DNA of 50,752 bases from an uncultured Alphaproteobacteria bacterium (GTDB lineage: Bacteria; Pseudomonadota; Alphaproteobacteria; HIMB59; GCA-002718135). This document shows, one piece after another, positions 1 through 7,760 of the stretch; position 1 is the stretch's first letter, and every line of letters starts with the position of its first letter. The notes under the pieces are model-generated. The model made no database searches. It was given only the letters and a program-made list of their open reading frames with translations, and was not told where the DNA came from. The translations under genes and the position numbers were made by a program. The stretch spans positions 1 to 50,752 of the forward strand of contig CABYIF010000005.1 in assembly GCA_902518985.1 (NCBI GenBank), in the 5' to 3' direction.

Positions 1-894
1 TCAATGGCTTCTACCAAAGGATCTCTTACAGTTGATGGAAAACAATATGGTGTTCCATGGGGTTATTATCAATGGGGCGTATATTACAGAAAAGATTTAT
101 TTGACCAACTTGGTTTAAATGTTCCACGTGACTGGGATGAATTTAAATGGGTTTGTGCTATGCTTAAAAAGAATGGAATTACTCCAATCACTATTGGTAC
201 TAAATTTTTATGGACCGCTGGCGGATGGTTTGATTATCTAAATCTTCGAATTAATGGTTATCAATTTCATATGGATTTAACAGCTGGTAAAGTAAGCTAT
301 GAAGATCCAAGACTTGACGCAGTTTTTGATCATTGGAGAGAATTAATTGATCCAGGATATTTCCTTGAAGATCATGCCTCTTTCTCATGGCAGGATGCAC
401 AAGCTCCACAAATCAATGGTGAAGCAGCAATGTACTTAATTGGTAATTTCTATGTACCTACTTTTGAAGCAGCAGGTATTGGTGATCAAATGGACTTCTT
501 TCAATTTCCTACAATCTATGAAGGTGTAGGCGTTGCTGAAGATGCTCCAACTGATACAATGCATATTCCAAGTGGAGCTAAAAACGTTGAAGATGCGAAG
601 AAATTCTTAGCATTTATGTCAAACAAAGAAGCTGCTACTAATTGGGCTAAAATGGGCGGTATGTTAAGTCCAAATAAATATGCTGATAAACCAACAAATA
701 GATTCTCAATAATGGGAGCTAAGATGCTCGCAGCTGCAGATGACATTGCACAATTCTGGGATAGAGACGCTAACCCGGATATGGCAGGTGCAGCAATGGA
801 AGGTTTCCAAGAATTTATGGTTAAGCCTGACCGTGAAGATAAAATTAGAGCTCGTCTTGAAAAAGAGAGAGCAAGAATTCACGGAGCATTATAA
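1..894 (+). CDS. Sugar ABC transporter solute-binding protein (5' truncated)
   Basis: The frame is open from base 1, so the gene begins upstream of the window and its signal peptide is not visible. About 297 residues remain, the C-terminal two thirds of a family 1 extracellular solute-binding protein. Typical features are a tryptophan/tyrosine-rich ligand cleft (VPWGYYQWGVYYRKDLFD near the visible start), the segment GEAAMYLIGNFYVP, and a C-terminal segment with AKKFLAFMSNKEAATNWAK. Two permease genes follow, so the protein should deliver a carbohydrate to that permease in the periplasm. The ligand cannot be read from sequence. A strong hairpin separates it from the permeases, which fits the higher expression binding proteins need. 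Family is confident; substrate unknown. Confidence 0.9.
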   Translation, partial: SMASTKGSLTVDGKQYGVPWGYYQWGVYYRKDLFDQLGLNVPRDWDEFKWVCAMLKKNGITPITIGTKFLWTAGGWFDYLNLRINGYQFHMDLTAGKVSYEDPRLDAVFDHWRELIDPGYFLEDHASFSWQDAQAPQINGEAAMYLIGNFYVPTFEAAGIGDQMDFFQFPTIYEGVGVAEDAPTDTMHIPSGAKNVEDAKKFLAFMSNKEAATNWAKMGGMLSPNKYADKPTNRFSIMGAKMLAAADDIAQFWDRDANPDMAGAAMEGFQEFMVKPDREDKIRARLEKERARIHGAL

Positions 895-907
895 ATTAAA
901 TTTTTAT

Positions 908-933
908 ATAGAGGTGTAAATCTACACCTCTAT
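908..933 (+). terminator. Hairpin between binding-protein and permease genes
   Basis: An 11-bp perfect stem (908-918 pairs with 923-933), core TAGAGGTGTA / TACACCTCTA with loop AATC, is followed by a short T run. It lies 14 nt after the binding-protein stop and 54 nt before the first permease. In ABC operons such intercistronic hairpins usually act as partial terminators or protect the upstream message from 3' decay. Which of the two applies here is inference. Confidence 0.75.
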
Positions 934-987
934 TTTCAATTATTTAAATTAAAGATTATAAAATTTATAAAAAGAGATATTAATTAA

Positions 988-1902
988 ATGACTTTTTGGG
1001 AACGTAACCAGTTAAAATTTGCTCCATTTCTTTTTCTCGCGCCAGCCATACTTATTTTTCTAATCTATGTAATTTATCCTATTTTTGACTCAATTTGGGT
1101 CAGCTTCCATGAATGGAATGGAATGGATAAAAGTGGTGTTAGAGGTAATGGTAAACCAAACTGGGAGTTTGTAGGATTAAAAAATTATATCACTCTATTT
1201 ACAGATGATGAAGAATTTTATGTTTCACTTTTTAATAATATTAGATGGTTAATATTTAGCTTACTAGCTGTTCCAATTGGATTAGCTTTAGCTCTTTTTG
1301 TTAATCAAAAAATTTTAGGTATAAGATATATAAAATCATTATTTTATTTTCCCTTTGTAATAAATGCTGTTGTTATAGGAGTAATATTTACTTGGTTTTA
1401 CAACCCTAAATATGGGGCCTTAACTCTTGTTCTAGGTTTTTTTGGTTTAGATCCTATACCAATGTTAGCAGATGAAAATTTAGCTACATATGGAATTATT
1501 ATAGCATCATTTTTTCCAGGTATAGCTTACACAATGATATTGTATATCACTGGATTGACAGGTGTAAGTAGGGAAATGATTGAAGCTGGAAGGATAGATG
1601 GCGCTTCAGGATTTACAATGTTATGGCATGTTGTTTTACCTCAATTAAGACCTGCAACTCTTATCGCTATTGTTGTGACTTTAGTTGGAGCACTTAGAGC
1701 ATTTGACTTAATTGCAGTAATGACAGCAGGAGGTCCTTGGGGTAGTTCTGAGGTTTTAGCTTATAAAATGTATCAAGAGGCATTATTTAATTTTAGAATG
1801 GGCTATGGTGCTGCTATTGCCACAATTCTTTTCCTAATAATGGATATTTATATTGCCTGGTTTTTATATCGTTTATTTAAAAACGAAAGGTCTGAAAAAT
1901 AA
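988..1902 (+). CDS. Sugar ABC transporter permease, MalF/UgpA type
   Basis: 304 aa, inner-membrane permease of the carbohydrate-uptake CUT1 group. About six hydrophobic segments are visible, the first at residues 13-35. The cytoplasmic EAA loop that docks the ATPase is clear: EAGRIDGASGFTMLWHVVLP, followed by QLRP. The ATG start follows an A-rich leader. The stop shares one base with the start of the next permease, so the two are translationally coupled and should form a heterodimer. No ATPase (MalK-like) gene is present in the window. It may lie upstream, or a shared ATPase may serve the system. Confidence 0.93.
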   Translation: MTFWERNQLKFAPFLFLAPAILIFLIYVIYPIFDSIWVSFHEWNGMDKSGVRGNGKPNWEFVGLKNYITLFTDDEEFYVSLFNNIRWLIFSLLAVPIGLALALFVNQKILGIRYIKSLFYFPFVINAVVIGVIFTWFYNPKYGALTLVLGFFGLDPIPMLADENLATYGIIIASFFPGIAYTMILYITGLTGVSREMIEAGRIDGASGFTMLWHVVLPQLRPATLIAIVVTLVGALRAFDLIAVMTAGGPWGSSEVLAYKMYQEALFNFRMGYGAAIATILFLIMDIYIAWFLYRLFKNERSEK

Positions 1903-2753
1903 TGTTTCCAACACCAATTCAAAATTATTCTTTGAAAATAAATATTGGATACAGAGTTCTACTTGTATTTACCCTTGTTATTTGGTTGTTACCACTAATT
2001 GCAGTTATGCTTACTTCAATTAGAACATTTGATGATGTTCTTGCAGGTAATTATTGGACGTTCCCAAAAGAAACCGCATTGTTTTCTAATTATGCAGCAG
2101 TTTTTGCAGATGGAAAAATGGCAGGGTTTTTTCTTAATAGTTTAATTATTACATTACCAACTGTTTTAGGAACATTATTTTTAAGTTCTCTAGCTGGTTA
2201 TTCACTTGCCATGCATCGTTTTAAACTAAATCTTTTAGTCTTTGCAATGTTTATTGCAGGAAATTTTGTTCCATATCAAATCTTAATGATACCGGTTAGA
2301 AATATCTCCATTGAATTAGGTATGTATAATAGTCATTTGGGATTAATTATTTTTCATATTGCTTTTCAAACAGGATTTTGTACTTTTTTTCTAAGAAATT
2401 TTATTAAAGAATTACCTTTCGAACTTATTGAAGCTGCAAGAGCTGATGGAGCTACAGAATGGACAATTTATAGAAAAATAATTATTCCACTTATAATTCC
2501 TGCTCTTGCGGCACTAGGTGTGTTAGAGTTTACTTTCATATGGAATGATTATTTTTGGGCTTTAATTTTGACACAAGGAGATACTGTAAAACCAATAACA
2601 GTTGGTTTAGATGTTTTAAGAGGTCAATGGACAACTGCTTGGAATTTAGTTTCAGCAGGATCTGTGGTTGCAGCACTTCCACCTGTAATAATGTTTTTCA
2701 TTTTACAAAGACAATTTATTCAGGGACTAACATTTGGTGCTGTAAAAGGATAA
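1902..2753 (+). CDS. Sugar ABC transporter permease, MalG/UgpE type
   Basis: 283 aa, the second inner-membrane permease of the CUT1 importer. An N-terminal membrane segment spans about residues 17-38. The EAA loop reads EAARADGATEWTIYRKIIIP, close to the family consensus, and the C-terminal FIQGLTFGAVKG is typical of MalG-like proteins. It overlaps the upstream permease by 1 nt (TAATG). A 38-nt gap separates it from the aldolase gene, so transport and catabolism are probably co-transcribed. Confidence 0.93.
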   Translation: MFPTPIQNYSLKINIGYRVLLVFTLVIWLLPLIAVMLTSIRTFDDVLAGNYWTFPKETALFSNYAAVFADGKMAGFFLNSLIITLPTVLGTLFLSSLAGYSLAMHRFKLNLLVFAMFIAGNFVPYQILMIPVRNISIELGMYNSHLGLIIFHIAFQTGFCTFFLRNFIKELPFELIEAARADGATEWTIYRKIIIPLIIPALAALGVLEFTFIWNDYFWALILTQGDTVKPITVGLDVLRGQWTTAWNLVSAGSVVAALPPVIMFFILQRQFIQGLTFGAVKG

Positions 2754-2791
2754 TTTGTTGCAAATAAAGTAGTAAAATATAAAAGATATTT

Positions 2792-3856
2792 ATGTCACTA
2801 ATCTCATTAAGACAACTTTTAGATCACGCAGCTGAAAACAATTATGGCGTTCCTGCCTTTAATGTTAATAATTTAGAGCAAATAAGAGCTATTATGGAGG
2901 GTGCAAAAGAACTAAATAGTCCAGTAATATTACAAGCATCAAAATCAGCAAGAAAATACGCGGGTTCAATATTTTTACAAAAAATGGTTGAAGCAGTATC
3001 TGAAGAGTTTTCAGAAATTCCAACAGTTTTACATCAAGATCATGGAGGTTCTCCGTCTGATTGTAAAGATTGTATAGATTTAGGTTTTACTTCAGTTATG
3101 ATGGATGGTTCTCTTGAAGAGGATCAAAAAACTCCTTCAAATTTTGAGTATAATGTTAAAGTTACTAAGCAAACAGTTGATATTGCGCATTCTTTTGGGG
3201 TGTCAGTTGAAGGGGAGTTAGGTTGTTTAGGATCTCTTGAAACTGGGATGGGAGAAAAAGAGGATGGAGTTGGGGCAGAAGGTGTTTTGTCTCAAGAACA
3301 ACTATTAACTGATCCAGATGAAGCTTCAAACTTTGTAAATCAAACAAATGTAGATGCTTTAGCTATTGCAATTGGTACTAGTCATGGTGCTTACAAATTT
3401 TCTAAACCACCCACAGGTGATACTCTTGCTATGGAGAGGATTAGAGAAATACACTCAAGATTGCCAAACACCCATTTAGTTATGCATGGCTCTTCATCAG
3501 TACCCAAAGAATTAATTTCTATAATAAATGAATTTGGTGGAAAAATTAAAGAAACATATGGTGTGCCTGTAAGTGAAATAAAAGAAGGTATTAAAAATGG
3601 TGTTAGAAAAATAAATGTTGATACAGATTTAAGATTAGCCTCAACAGCTGCAATTAGAAAATTTTTTGTAGAAAATCCAAGTGAATTTGATCCAAGAAAA
3701 TATTTAACTCTCTCAAAAGAAGCTATGAAAAATGTTGTAAAAAATAGACTATTAGAATTTGGTGCAGCAGGTAATGCATCTAAAATTAAGCCAAATTCAC
3801 TCTCTTTTATGGCTTCTCAATATCAATCCGGTGAGCTGACATCAATTGTTAACTAA
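2792..3856 (+). CDS. fba: Class II fructose-bisphosphate aldolase
   Basis: 354 aa, the usual length for the CbbA-type (Calvin-cycle subtype) zinc aldolase, which interconverts fructose 1,6-bisphosphate with dihydroxyacetone phosphate and glyceraldehyde 3-phosphate. Visible marks are HQDHGG at residues 81-86 (catalytic Asp83 and zinc-ligand His84), VEGELGCLG, the phosphate-binding [19 protein letters not shown], and [14 protein letters not shown] near the C-terminus. The gene sits inside an uptake and sugar-oxidation operon, directly abutting the next gene. It may therefore be the housekeeping aldolase or one devoted to the phosphorylated product of this pathway. The family is secure; exact substrate preference (fructose or a related ketose bisphosphate) is not. 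Confidence 0.92.
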
Positions 3857-4897
3857 ATGAATAAAATACGTTGGGGAATACTTGGACCAGGTTCTATAGC
3901 TAATAATTTTGCGGATGGTTTAAGTGGATCATATTCAGGTGAATTAAAAGCCATAGCAAGCTTTAATAATAATAGAAGAAAAACATTTGGAGATAAGTAT
4001 CAAATAGAAGAAAGCTTAAGATTTAGTAATTATGATGATCTATTAAATTCAGAATCAGTAGATGCTGTTTATATTTCGACACCCCATACTTTGCATGCAG
4101 AATTATCTATTAAAGCAGCAGGAAAAGGTAAGCATATTTTGTGTGAAAAACCTGCTGCAGTAAATTTCAAGGAGGGCCAAAAGGTGATTAAAGCTGTAAC
4201 AGATGCAGGTGTATTTTACAAAGAAGGTTTTATGTATCGTTGTCATCCACAAATTCCAGCTTTACTTGAATTAATTAAAAATAAGACAATTGGTGATTTA
4301 ATTAAAATTACATCCTCTTTTGGATTTGATATGACAAAAGTTATACCTGATCATAGACTATTTAATAAGAATTTAGCAGGTGGAGCAATTCTTGATGTTG
4401 GTTTATACCCGGTTTCATTTTCTAGAATGATTGCAGGGGCTAATTTAGGAAAGAAATTTATTAATCCTATGTCTTTGGAGGCAAATGCAAAAATAGGAGA
4501 CACTGGAGTTGATGAAATTTCTTCAGCATTTATGGAATTTGAAAATGGTTTAAAAGCTGAAGCACACACTGCAATAATGAAAAACATGAATAATAATGCA
4601 ATTATTGAAGGTTCAGGTGGTAAAATTATAGTAAATAATCCATGGATGCCTGGTAAAGATGGGGGCCCATATCATTCAACCATAAGTATAATAAAAAATG
4701 GTAATGAAGAAATTAAAAATTTTAAAGGTCCAGAACATTTATTTTTCTTTGAAGCTGAACTATCAAGTCAATCAATCATCAAAGAAAAACAACAAGTTCC
4801 CCACCCAGGTATGACGTGGGAAGATACACTAAGCAATTTAAAAGTGTTAGATTTATGGAGAAAAAAAATTAACTATAATTTAGAACAAGACCTATGA
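3857..4897 (+). CDS. Gfo/Idh/MocA family sugar oxidoreductase (first copy)
   Basis: 346 aa NAD(P)-dependent dehydrogenase. The N-terminal Rossmann fold begins IRWGILGPGSIANNFADG, and the family EKP motif (CEKPA) is at residues 96-100. The C-terminal substrate domain has GGAILDVGLYPVSF, whose Asp-Tyr arrangement is typical of dimeric dihydrodiol dehydrogenase-like members. It starts on the base after the aldolase stop and overlaps the aldo/keto reductase by 4 nt (ATGA). Family members oxidise or reduce sugars, inositols or glycosides at a ring carbon. A second, divergent member lies at 6636-7760, suggesting two redox steps in one pathway. The substrate is unknown. Confidence 0.88.
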   Translation: MNKIRWGILGPGSIANNFADGLSGSYSGELKAIASFNNNRRKTFGDKYQIEESLRFSNYDDLLNSESVDAVYISTPHTLHAELSIKAAGKGKHILCEKPAAVNFKEGQKVIKAVTDAGVFYKEGFMYRCHPQIPALLELIKNKTIGDLIKITSSFGFDMTKVIPDHRLFNKNLAGGAILDVGLYPVSFSRMIAGANLGKKFINPMSLEANAKIGDTGVDEISSAFMEFENGLKAEAHTAIMKNMNNNAIIEGSGGKIIVNNPWMPGKDGGPYHSTISIIKNGNEEIKNFKGPEHLFFFEAELSSQSIIKEKQQVPHPGMTWEDTLSNLKVLDLWRKKINYNLEQDL

Positions 4898-5862
4898 TGC
4901 AATATGATAAAATAGAAGGATTAGATAAAGAAATTTCAAAACTTATTATGGGTAATGATAATCAAGTTGATTATGAACAAGCTTCAATTTTATGGGATCA
5001 TTGGATTGAAGTAGGAGGAAATTCATTTGATAATGCACATATTTATGGTGATGGAAGTATGGAAATTCTTTTAGGGAAATGGCACAAATCACGAAATAAT
5101 CTTAAAGATCTAGTTATTATTGCTAAAGGAGCCCATACACCAAATTGCAATCCAAAAAGTATTTCATCTCAATTGTCAGAGTCTTTAGATAGATTGCAAA
5201 CTGAAAGTGCCGATATTTATATTATGCATAGAGACAATAAAGAAATACCAGTTGATGAATTTATTGATGTTCTTAATGAAGAGAAAAATAAAGGGAGAAT
5301 AAAAATTTTTGGAGGCTCTAATTGGACACTTGACAGATTTAAAGAGGCAAACAATTGGGCTAAAAATAATAACAAAGATGGTTTTAGAATATTAAATAAT
5401 AACTTGGCGCTATGTAAAATGATTAATCCACTTTGGGATGGATGCGTCTCATCAAATAATCAGGATATTTTAAATTATTTATATGACTCACAAATTGCTC
5501 ATCTTTCCTGGTCAAGTCAAGGTAGAGGATATTTTTTACCTGACGAAATAACTAAAAAAATTGAAGAAGATATTACTGCCTCTGAGACTTGGAGAGAACC
5601 TGGAGCTCATTCAAGTGGACCTTTAAGTTGTTTTGATAATGAAGATAATAGAGAAAGAAAAAAAAGAGCCAATGAGTTAGCAAATAAAATGCAAACAACT
5701 GCTCAAAATATAGCAGGAGCATGGCCATTGAATTTAAATTTTCCATCCTTTGCTCTTATTGGGCCTAGAAATATAAAAGAAATCAATTCGTCTCTAAATA
5801 ATTTAGATGTTAATTTAAGCAATGATCAAGTAAATTGGTTAAACTTAATCACAAATAATTAA
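4894..5862 (+). CDS. Aldo/keto reductase
   Basis: 322 aa TIM-barrel NAD(P)H-dependent oxidoreductase. The catalytic tetrad can be placed by motif: Asp46 and Tyr51 in SFDNAHIYG, Lys78 in IIAKGAH, His112 in YIMHRD. The C-terminal cofactor region has FALIGPRN, as in family members that bind NADP through this loop. Its start overlaps the upstream dehydrogenase stop (ATGA), and the next gene follows after one base, so it belongs to the same transcription unit. It probably reduces or oxidises a sugar-derived carbonyl. I cannot assign the substrate. Confidence 0.87.
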   Translation: MMQYDKIEGLDKEISKLIMGNDNQVDYEQASILWDHWIEVGGNSFDNAHIYGDGSMEILLGKWHKSRNNLKDLVIIAKGAHTPNCNPKSISSQLSESLDRLQTESADIYIMHRDNKEIPVDEFIDVLNEEKNKGRIKIFGGSNWTLDRFKEANNWAKNNNKDGFRILNNNLALCKMINPLWDGCVSSNNQDILNYLYDSQIAHLSWSSQGRGYFLPDEITKKIEEDITASETWREPGAHSSGPLSCFDNEDNRERKKRANELANKMQTTAQNIAGAWPLNLNFPSFALIGPRNIKEINSSLNNLDVNLSNDQVNWLNLITNN

Positions 5863-5863
5863 A

Positions 5864-6634
5864 ATGAATATAAATCAAATATCCTTCCAATTATATACAG
5901 CAAGAAAATTCACACCTTATAGAAAAATATTTGAATTTATATCCTCAGCAGGAATTAATAATATTGAACTTTTTGCTCTTTCAGATTTTGATGAAAAAGA
6001 AATTAAAGACTTGCTACAGGAATTCAATTTAACCTCTTTGTCTGCGCATATAAGTTTTGAAAGTTTAGAACAAATTGAAGTAATATTAAGTAAATTAAAA
6101 TACTTGAACATAAAGTATGCAATTATTCCTGCTCCAAAAGCAATACCTGGTAAAGAATTTGAAGATTTTTTTAAATTATCTGAAGAAGAATGGATAAATT
6201 TTTCAAAAGAAATTTCTGCTAAAATTAAAATATTTAATGATAATGGATTTACACTTGGATATCACAATCATTCATTTGAATTTAATGTACTATCAAATGG
6301 AAAATATCCAATGGAATATATAATGGATGAAAATGAAAATTTAAAGTTTGAAATTGATCTTGGATGGACTGTTGCGGGAAGAGCTAATCCAATAGATTGG
6401 ATTAATAAATATAAACACCAAATAATTGCCTGTCATCTTAAAGATTTTTCTTCATCTAAAAATATGCTTGATCATAACAATCAATGCTCAATTGGAGAGG
6501 GTTTTATAAACTGGAAAGAATTATTAACTAAAATATCTGAAACTCCTTGTGAAGTTATCGCGATAGAGCATGATGATCCCAAAGATTACAAAGAATATAT
6601 AACAAAATCATTAGAATATTTATTAAATATTTAA
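5864..6634 (+). CDS. Sugar phosphate isomerase/epimerase-like TIM barrel protein
   Basis: 256 aa, AP-endonuclease 2-like barrel (IolE/xylose-isomerase-like group). Likely metal ligands and active-site stretches are GYHNHSFEF, KFEIDLGWT, IACHLKDFS and EVIAIEHDDP, which supply the usual Glu, His, Asp and Glu around a divalent metal. The length is typical. The gene is one base from each neighbour. Relatives include inosose dehydratase, hydroxypyruvate isomerase, and enzymes that cleave or eliminate from 3-keto-glycosides. With two Gfo/Idh/MocA dehydrogenases alongside, the last role is attractive but unproven. Confidence 0.85.
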   Translation: MNINQISFQLYTARKFTPYRKIFEFISSAGINNIELFALSDFDEKEIKDLLQEFNLTSLSAHISFESLEQIEVILSKLKYLNIKYAIIPAPKAIPGKEFEDFFKLSEEEWINFSKEISAKIKIFNDNGFTLGYHNHSFEFNVLSNGKYPMEYIMDENENLKFEIDLGWTVAGRANPIDWINKYKHQIIACHLKDFSSSKNMLDHNNQCSIGEGFINWKELLTKISETPCEVIAIEHDDPKDYKEYITKSLEYLLNI

Positions 6635-6635
6635 T

Positions 6636-7760
6636 ATGAACATAGGAATAATTGGTTGTGGCAATATTTCAGATACATATTTTAATTCTCAAAAAATATT
6701 CAATAATATAAATATCATTTCATGTTCTGATTTAAAAAAAGATATTTCGGATAAAAAAGCGTTAGAATATAATGTTAAATCACAAACAGTTGAGGAACTT
6801 TTAAAAAATAAAGATATAGATATTATTTTAAATCTAACTATACCATCAGCACACAAAGAGATTATAATAAAATCTATTGAAAATGGTAAGCATTGTTTTA
6901 GTGAAAAACCTCTGGCAATTAATTTTAACGATGGATTGCAAATTCAAAAGATTTCAAACGAGAAAAGTATAACTATTGGTTGTGCCCCAGATACATTTCT
7001 AGGAGCTACTGGTCAAAAAGCCCGAACGCTAATAGATAATAACGAAATTGGAAAAGTTGTCTTAGGGACATTTAATATTATGTCTCATGGGATGGAGGAT
7101 TGGCATCCAAATCCAGATTTTTTCTTTAAACCAGGGGCTGGACCCGTGTTTGATCTTGGAGTTTACTATTTAACGCAATTAATAAATCTGAATGGCTCAA
7201 TAAATAGTGTTTTTGCAACTAGTGGGACAGCATCAAAGGAAAGAATTATAACAAGTCAACCAAGAAAAGGAGAAAAAATTATTGTTGAAACACCAACAAC
7301 TTTAATGGGGGTTTTAAATTTTAACAATGGATCAAAAATACAATTTTTTTGTTCATGGGATGTTTGGAATCATACCCACTCAAACATTGAACTGTATGGA
7401 TTGGAAGGTTCAATGATTTTACCAGATCCAAATTTTTTTAGTGGCGATATAAAGGTTTCAAAAAAAAATAATAACTGGATTAAAATTAATAATGACAAAA
7501 TGTTGTTAGGTATCCCAAACTTAAGCGATATAGGTGGATCAAAAGTTGCAAATTATAGAGGTATAGGATTATCAGAAATGGTAGATGCAATTACGAATAA
7601 TAGACAACCTAGATGCTCTTTAGATTTGGCATTACATACATTGGAAGTTATGGAAGGAATAATTAAATCATCAGAGACTAATAAAATTATAAACATGACT
7701 ACTAAAACTGAGAAACCTAAAATTTTGGATGAAAATAAAATACAAAGTTTAAAAAAATAG
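6636..7760 (+). CDS. Gfo/Idh/MocA family sugar oxidoreductase (second copy)
   Basis: 374 aa. The N-terminal Rossmann motif is MNIGIIGCGNISDTYF, and the EKP motif (SEKPLAINF) is at residues 90-92. The C-terminal domain holds GAGPVFDLGVYYLTQLI, the family's substrate-binding helix with its conserved Asp and Tyr. It is clearly divergent from the copy at 3857 and has an insertion (roughly residues 195-215) with the sequence RKGEKIIVETPTT. Last gene of the operon; the convergent mlaC stop lies 4 nt beyond its own stop. Confidence 0.88.
   Translation: MNIGIIGCGNISDTYFNSQKIFNNINIISCSDLKKDISDKKALEYNVKSQTVEELLKNKDIDIILNLTIPSAHKEIIIKSIENGKHCFSEKPLAINFNDGLQIQKISNEKSITIGCAPDTFLGATGQKARTLIDNNEIGKVVLGTFNIMSHGMEDWHPNPDFFFKPGAGPVFDLGVYYLTQLINLNGSINSVFATSGTASKERIITSQPRKGEKIIVETPTTLMGVLNFNNGSKIQFFCSWDVWNHTHSNIELYGLEGSMILPDPNFFSGDIKVSKKNNNWIKINNDKMLLGIPNLSDIGGSKVANYRGIGLSEMVDAITNNRQPRCSLDLALHTLEVMEGIIKSSETNKIINMTTKTEKPKILDENKIQSLKK

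Follow-up and report, generated by a model that had tools for sequence, protein, structure and literature searches.

An operon for predicted oxidation–elimination of glycosides in a marine alphaproteobacterium of the HIMB59 order

An eight-gene operon at a contig end

The window analysed here is a stretch of 50,752 nucleotides from an uncultured alphaproteobacterium of the HIMB59 order, family GCA-002718135 (NCBI GenBank assembly GCA_902518985.1, contig CABYIF010000005.1), and runs from the first base of contig 5 of a draft genome of 1.18 Mb that is 69.6% complete. The G+C content is 28.1% (over 155 kb of the genome's own sequence); families of this order are reported to average 1.70 Mb and 29.1% G+C (GCA-002718135) or 1.47 Mb and 30.7% (HIMB59) (PMC10734472). 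At the 5′ end of the window lies a forward-strand operon of eight genes, ending at position 7760, which encodes parts of a sugar importer, an aldolase and four enzymes, here called GFO1, AKR, BAR and GFO2. A preliminary description, made from the DNA sequence alone, had proposed that these enzymes oxidise glycosides at C3 and then split the product; its gene calls and coordinates proved correct and the operon is real.

The operon opens with a solute-binding protein (1..894; SBP_bac_1) and two permeases (988..1902 and 1902..2753; both BPD_transp_1) of a sugar ATP-binding cassette (ABC) importer. Because the window starts at a contig end, the N-terminal part of the binding protein is missing and this genome shows nothing of the genes upstream. 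There follow a type B class II fructose-bisphosphate aldolase, probably a housekeeping enzyme (2792..3856; F_bP_aldolase, TIGR01521); GFO1, a Gfo/Idh/MocA sugar oxidoreductase of NADP type by its beta-2 residue S35 (3857..4897; GFO_IDH_MocA); AKR, an aldo/keto reductase with the complete tetrad D46, Y51, K78 and H112 (4894..5862; Aldo_ket_red); BAR, a xylose-isomerase-like triosephosphate isomerase (TIM) barrel and predicted Mn-dependent 3-keto-glycoside beta-eliminase (5864..6634; AP_endonuc_2); and GFO2, a predicted NAD-dependent glycoside 3-dehydrogenase with K91, D173, Y177 and D32 (6636..7760; GFO_IDH_MocA). All eight proteins exceed the Pfam cut-offs for their domains. On the opposite strand, downstream of GFO2, stand mlaC and mlaA and then uvrD and ligA, the last two named by reading their translations.

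The tight spacing of 0–4 nucleotides first described for the operon holds from the aldolase through GFO2 (no gap between aldolase and GFO1, a 4-nucleotide overlap between GFO1 and AKR, and single nucleotides between AKR and BAR and between BAR and GFO2) and for the two permeases, which overlap by one nucleotide, but not for the other importer joints: 93 nucleotides separate the binding protein from the first permease and 38 the second permease from the aldolase. There is no ATPase among the importer genes in the window; one MalK/UgpC-type ATPase encoded elsewhere in the genome could be the partner of this importer.

The aldolase had been taken as a sign that the product enters metabolism as a ketose bisphosphate. 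It scores 590 bits against TIGR01521 (FruBisAldo_II_B; cut-off 496), no second PF01116 match turned up in the 70%-complete genome, and the enzyme probably belongs to ordinary glycolysis. We accordingly dropped it as a clue to a special ketose-bisphosphate route.

BAR and GFO2, a predicted eliminase and a predicted dehydrogenase

BAR is a single-domain TIM barrel of 256 residues without a lid. Its best match in the PDB is 8bvk (E-value 2.9e-21, residues 6–253), which is AtOGE, an O-glycoside beta-eliminase from Agrobacterium whose reaction has been measured and of which mutants have been made (PMC10628242). In AtOGE, manganese is reported to be held by H132, D163 and H189 and weakly by E233, with H134 as the base; variants H134A and H189A are inactive, and in C-glycoside eliminases Glu replaces H132 (PMC10628242). 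BAR matches the AtOGE metal ligands with H134, D165, H191 and E235 and the catalytic base with H136, residues identical in 22 of 22 aligned sequences, and also matches the alternative-site residues E39, H66 and E161. At the first ligand position BAR has His, not Glu.

An AlphaFold model of BAR (17 sequences; predicted local distance difference test score, pLDDT, 92.3) was compared with 995 chains, with rows within one Z-score unit counted as tied. The 3-keto-beta-glucopyranoside-1,2-lyase AL1 of Alistipes (8tcd) took ranks 1 and 2 (Z 26.2 and 26.1; rank 1 with 233 residues aligned at 2.1 Å), two Parabacteroides barrels without assigned function ranks 3 and 4 (Z 25.6 and 25.0), the lyase BT1 rank 5 (Z 24.6) and AtOGE rank 7 (Z 24.2; 210 of 214 residues aligned at 2.3 Å). 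The comparison suggested earlier, between the barrel and both 3-keto-glycoside enzymes and IolE, thus places the model nearest the 3-keto-glucoside lyases, with IolE lower at 23.5. The isomerase YcjR (6wn6) appears at rank 32 (Z 20.1), and no YcjR chain was among the six PDB sequence matches of BAR at an E-value of 1e-3. Because proteins of differing function score within close Z, the fold alone does not settle what BAR does; profile cut-offs and the active site say more. On these grounds we predict that BAR is a 3-keto-glycoside beta-eliminase.

GFO2 finds DgpA1 and DgpA as its first and second PDB matches, both with the single sequence (E-values 1.4e-19 and 9e-17) and with a profile (7.5e-26 and 2.5e-22), although no curated DgpA model matched that would assign it to the DgpA group. 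DgpA is reported to oxidise glycosides at C3 and to regenerate NAD+ with 3-oxo-glucose (PMC11239390). The Lys, Asp and a Tyr of Gfo/Idh/MocA enzymes are kept in 22 of 22 sequences for GFO2 and 13 of 13 for GFO1, and the end of the second beta strand carries Asp (D32) in 22 of 22 GFO2 sequences and Ser or Thr in all 16 sequences of GFO1 and of the GFO1–AKR fusions treated below. Asp at this position is the usual sign of NAD(H), whereas Ser or Thr fits NADP(H), so GFO2 looks NAD-dependent and GFO1 NADP-dependent.

Nine Gfo/Idh/MocA (PF01408) matches occur in this small, 70%-complete genome. On contig 4 (L055:5147-9567), a GFO2 paralogue, 43% identical, follows a PhyH oxygenase, with a BPD_transp_2 permease two genes earlier. 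The fold of glycoside hydrolase (GH) family GH109 is that of Gfo/Idh/MocA proteins, and such proteins counted as GH109 could underlie the ‘alpha-N-acetylgalactosaminidase’ enrichment reported for family GCA-002718135 (PMC10734472).

Related loci, substrate and the GFO1–AKR module

We drew on 37 genomes of the organism's own family (including its own) and 24 of the sister family, counting as BAR only matches of at least 52% identity and excluding weaker hits (24–29%). BAR is present in 27 of the 37 and in none of the 24. Within the own family, BAR and AKR occur together in 25 genomes, BAR alone in two, AKR alone in four and neither in six (Fisher p 0.002, a guide only, as the genomes are related and incomplete). 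We then read 23 congener loci, picked because they hold BAR: 20 from the 26 other own-family genomes with BAR, and three public records (isolates AH-321-J05, AG-916-I19 and AG-893-O06). BAR is followed by GFO2 in all 23, GFO1 and AKR are adjacent in each of the 21 loci that extend over the two, and the next gene after GFO2 is mlaC, on the other strand, in 19 loci, standing behind one GH1 gene in the remaining four. Given this conserved order, the arrangement of the operon is not chance.

The junction between AKR and BAR is more variable. Among the 22 loci that show AKR, it is direct in nine, holds a LacI gene in two and an entire second importer (one binding protein, a pair of permeases and a UgpC-type ATPase) in 11, seven of which also have a LacI gene on the other strand. 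The binding protein found in the window was seen in nine of the 23 loci; the stretches of L043 and L045 stop inside permease 2. A search further upstream for an ATPase, regulator and kinase had been suggested; in the three closest loci that reach so far (L032 to L034), none of them stands between the binding protein and rpoD, the genes 5′ of the binding protein being an RNase Z-like hydrolase and then rpoD. The importer genes (1–2753) are 95–100% identical at the protein level to their copies in L032, L033, L046 and L049, whose enzymes are only 52–84% identical; in L034 the importer is 66–69% identical, yet the enzymes are as close as those of L032; and the DNA of L046 is 86% identical over 1–3781 and 74–77% over the remainder. 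Cassette exchange between species is likely.

It had also been remarked that no kinase or glycoside hydrolase is visible, which is true of the window, but congener loci do carry glycoside hydrolases. A GH4 gene flanks the binding protein in six of the nine loci that show it, and the three GH4 proteins tested pass an alpha-galactosidase model (580, 593 and 607 bits against a cut-off of 486). The GH1 proteins encoded 3′ of GFO2 in four of the 23 loci pass a beta-glucosidase model (528 to 541 bits against 478.5); GH1 is the last operon gene in L037, L039, L042 and L047, exactly the four of the 11 second-importer loci without LacI. Since these four congeners carry a beta-glucosidase, the enzymes may accept several glycosides.

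For the imported sugar, a full-length congener binding protein (L032:3753-5030), 100% identical (rounded) to the window copy over the shared part, is closest in the PDB to AcbH (E-value 8.6e-57). AcbH has high affinity for galactose, and the title of the structure paper cited for it speaks of an exclusive preference for beta-D-galactopyranose (PMC3364876). Four plasmid neighbourhoods of binding-protein relatives, picked among 20 listed, include three with a gene named alpha-galactosidase and two with a gene named for 2-keto-3-deoxygalactonate use. Because of the likeness to AcbH, galactose or a galactoside is our first guess at the substrate.

The closest PDB relative of GFO1 is dimeric dihydrodiol dehydrogenase; the matches that come next include sugar 3-ketoreductase and glucose-fructose oxidoreductase. 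The predicted structure of GFO1 (pLDDT 71) was too poor for a fold search. Against the glycoside 3-dehydrogenase models BT_2158 and BT_2159, GFO1 scores 33 and 26 bits (cut-offs 750 and 650). Aldo/keto reductases work with an Asp-Tyr-Lys-His tetrad, which AKR and its relatives keep in 26 of 26 sequences; DepB is the best solved relative of AKR, whose matches also include a deoxynivalenol 3-epimerase entry. The window AKR found no match at 1e-8 among the AKR genes that lie beside BAR–GFO2 in Sinorhizobium and Roseinatronobacter.

On plasmids of Rhizobium etli CFN 42, R. beringeri and Rhizobium sp. Pop5, a single fusion protein of 667 residues combines a GFO1 part (residues 7–345, 45–46% identity) with an AKR part (368–665, 41%), and its gene stands behind an ABC importer of its own. 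The full fusion occurs in nine of 385 genomes of the class as one open frame of 664–684 residues, with one more split between contigs, and its neighbours in those that were read are mixed (SelO, nuclease, amidohydrolase, cytochrome P450, desaturase, GH3, phosphotransferase) and point to no common substrate. In two genomes of 1.7–1.8 Mb (L093:4733-11439 and L095:4936-11569), the fusion adjoins a P450 and a fatty-acid-desaturase-like protein; its divergent neighbour in L093 is a GH3 glycosidase. One narrow literature search for the GFO–AKR fusion found no paper.

As two oxidoreductases that are fused elsewhere and apparently NADP-linked, GFO1 and AKR suggest a second, redox-neutral sugar-converting module, not foreseen in the preliminary description, in which oxidation followed by reduction would amount to epimerisation or isomerisation. 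Its substrate may be a modified sugar, because a PhyH-family oxygenase lies near GFO1 in six of the 23 congener loci and a P450 near the fusion in two distant genomes. A bolder proposal, which we consider doubtful, is a two-headed epimerase: GFO1 would oxidise a hydroxyl with NADP+ and AKR would reduce the resulting ketone with that NADPH in the opposite stereochemistry. An imported hexose, galactose for instance, would become a sugar able to join glycolysis straight away, needing neither UDP-sugars nor phosphoglucomutase. Replacement of the Leloir pathway by this module, which predicts that galactokinase is missing wherever the module occurs, is not supported: galactokinase is present in 27 of the 37 own-family and 13 of the 24 sister-family genomes, and within the own family in 18 of the 27 with BAR and nine of the 10 without, though none was found in the 70%-complete genome of the organism itself. 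At most, GFO1–AKR may be a route parallel to the Leloir pathway.

Proposed pathway, alternatives and known systems

From the homologies, the conservation of the active sites, the order of the genes and the fusion, we propose, with a probability of about 0.68, that the operon serves to take up a hexoside or hexose, most likely of galactose type, and to cleave glycosidic bonds by oxidation and elimination rather than hydrolysis. The idea of C3 oxidation followed by elimination is supported, BAR being closest to AtOGE and the 3-keto-glucoside lyases and GFO2 to DgpA. GFO2 would oxidise the sugar at C3 with NAD+; in BAR, Mn2+ would polarise the 3-keto group and H136 take the C2 proton, so that the aglycone is eliminated and a 2-hydroxy-3-keto-glycal formed. 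A hydratase encoded on contig 4 would add water to give a 3-keto-hexose. Its reduction to the free hexose could fall to GFO2 itself, to the Gfo/Idh/MocA protein encoded beside the hydratase or to GFO1/AKR, and the free hexose could then be phosphorylated by a hexokinase (the candidate being the one ROK-family protein of the genome) and passed through the aldolase. GFO1 and AKR would form the second, NADP-linked module, acting on the same or another imported sugar. A DUF1080-type 3-keto-disaccharide hydrolase was discarded as the cleaving enzyme, PF06439 having no match in the 70%-complete genome.

The hydratase candidate (contig 4:41188-42237) matches 8ro4, ‘2-hydroxy-3-keto-glucal hydratase’, over its full length (350 residues matched) with an E-value of 1.5e-172 and is followed by another Gfo/Idh/MocA gene. 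Where the pathways of Agrobacterium and Bacillus use two barrels, this operon encodes a single one. Homologues of the hydratase and its Gfo neighbour stand beside BAR–GFO2 in three of the five BAR–GFO2 plasmid operons read (a sixth plasmid region, a GFO2-only hit, was excluded): in Paracoccus sp. AK26, Agrobacterium sp. T29 and Roseinatronobacter sp. S2 the hydratase is 61%, 68% and 63% identical and the neighbour 45–52%.

Several results weigh against this pathway. BAR is only 22–23% identical to the lyases in its fold list and distant from every tested enzyme, and other functions are close in fold: the isomerase Art22 at rank 6 (Z 24.5) stands above AtOGE, and IolE entries (Z 23.5 and 23.0) and the dehydratase AsbF (Z 23.3) follow. 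GFO2 scores only 22 and 36 bits against BT_2158 and BT_2159 (cut-offs 750 and 650). A different importer lies immediately 5′ of BAR–GFO2 in 12 of the 23 congener loci, and relatives of the second importer precede BAR–GFO2 on rhizobial and paracoccal plasmids (binding protein 41–46% identical, four tested). The hydratase is on contig 4 and not in the operon on contig 5, where the contig end hides whatever lies upstream of the binding protein, so the four enzymes do not form a single operon like those of Agrobacterium and B. smithii. Nor does it track BAR, as had been expected: copies (counted at 269 or more matched residues, one of them partial with a stop) are found in 27 of the 37 own-family genomes and in 22 of the 24 BAR-less sister-family genomes, while seven of the 27 genomes with BAR, all incomplete, show none, one having an uncounted 30-residue fragment at a contig end. 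Since the hydratase is order-wide and BAR, among these genomes, occurs in only one of the two families, BAR probably feeds an older, shared step.

A reading compatible with oxidation–elimination, and one we hold to be a tentative possibility, is that BAR–GFO2 and GFO1–AKR serve two separate pathways brought into one locus only through genome streamlining. The complete other importer that divides the pairs in 11 of 22 congener loci, seven with an opposite-strand LacI gene, speaks for it, as do the separate importers of each pair on rhizobial plasmids and the four of 37 own-family genomes with AKR but without BAR; nevertheless, the pairs share a locus in all 21 cases that reach both, and AKR directly precedes BAR in nine of 22.

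Less probable is remodelling of an uncleaved glycoside, in which GFO2 would oxidise C3, BAR epimerise another position such as C4 and GFO1 or AKR re-reduce C3. The Ycj system of Escherichia coli has the same kinds of enzyme and an ABC importer, and YcjR is in the fold list of BAR, but 4 to 6 Z units below the lyases and AtOGE and absent from the sequence matches; moreover, glycoside hydrolases join the locus in congeners, and the genome encodes the hydratase that an elimination route would call for. We think it more unlikely still that the same chemistry is aimed specifically at levoglucosan or C-glycosides, even though levoglucosan is reported to be degraded by the same four steps (PMC7676230) and the nearest solved relatives of GFO2, the DgpA group, are known from C-glycoside use: the levoglucosan dehydrogenase model NF052479 (cut-off 650) gives 51 bits for GFO2 and 75 for GFO1, BAR has His at the first ligand position where C-glycoside eliminases have Glu, and the neighbouring alpha-galactosidase and beta-glucosidase point to O-glycosides. 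Inositol or inosose catabolism, in which GFO1 and GFO2 would be inositol dehydrogenases and BAR an inosose dehydratase, is very improbable despite weak similarity to IolG and IolE profiles and the IolE folds noted above, for GFO1 (93 bits) and GFO2 (62 bits) stay far below the IolG cut-off of 355 and BAR (36.7 bits) below the IolE cut-off of 290, while a contig-19 protein does exceed the IolG cut-off, with 378 bits, so that inositol dehydrogenase is kept elsewhere. That true inositol 2-dehydrogenase gene (L054:6448-9476) lies beside a Gfo/Idh/MocA gene and a gene for a short-chain dehydrogenase nearest the D-xylose dehydrogenase model, below its cut-off.

A 2023 study of the AEGEAN-169/HIMB59 surface-ocean order gives the lack of phosphoglucomutase as the reason why it is unclear how sugars enter glycolysis (PMC10308909). 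If oxidation–elimination holds true, release of free hexose followed by hexokinase would be one answer for glycosides; a GFO1–AKR epimerase, if real, would likewise allow entry without phosphoglucomutase, and the recurrent GFO–AKR fusion is an immediate target for enzymology. Our literature searches for the pathway found no paper on it in the HIMB59 order, though prior description elsewhere is possible, and ‘3-keto’, ‘Gfo’ and ‘aldo’ are absent from the main text of two papers on that order (PMC10308909, PMC10734472). Oxidation–elimination is already known from other bacteria as a little-explored alternative to hydrolysis; what is new here is its predicted occurrence in the HIMB59 marine group, its split form and the added GFO1–AKR module.

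Among known systems, the Agrobacterium tumefaciens pathway (GlycDH, AtOGE, AtHYD and a Gfo reductase; PMC10628242) shares with our operon the metal site and base of the eliminase and, elsewhere in the genome, the close hydratase homologue (8ro4) adjoining a Gfo/Idh/MocA gene; it differs in that its first step is reported to use a flavoenzyme where Gfo/Idh/MocA stands here, and in that the operon described here has its hydratase on another contig, an extra GFO1–AKR pair and an importer. The lgdA-lgdB1-lgdB2-lgdC cluster of Bacillus smithii, as reported (PMC7676230), likewise unites a dehydrogenase, isomerase-like barrels, a Gfo/Idh/MocA reductase, an ABC importer and LacI, but has two barrels together, and neither GFO1 nor GFO2 reaches the cut-off of the levoglucosan dehydrogenase model. 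From the DgpA–DgpBC puerarin pathway come the closest solved relative of GFO2 and the reported recycling of NAD by 3-oxo-glucose; its eliminase, however, is heterodimeric and has Glu at the first ligand position, whereas BAR has His there and consists of one short barrel. The lyases AL1 and BT1 of Alistipes and Bacteroides (8tcd, 8tct) are the top fold matches of BAR and have the YHNH motif in common with it in the alignment, yet they are only 22–23% identical and come from another phylum, and the cut-offs of the dehydrogenase models BT_2158 and BT_2159 are not reached here. Finally, the E. coli Ycj operon resembles the locus in combining an importer with a pair of dehydrogenases and with an isomerase-like barrel for 3-keto glucosides, but its barrel is an isomerase with a lower fold score to BAR, and phosphorylases are present.

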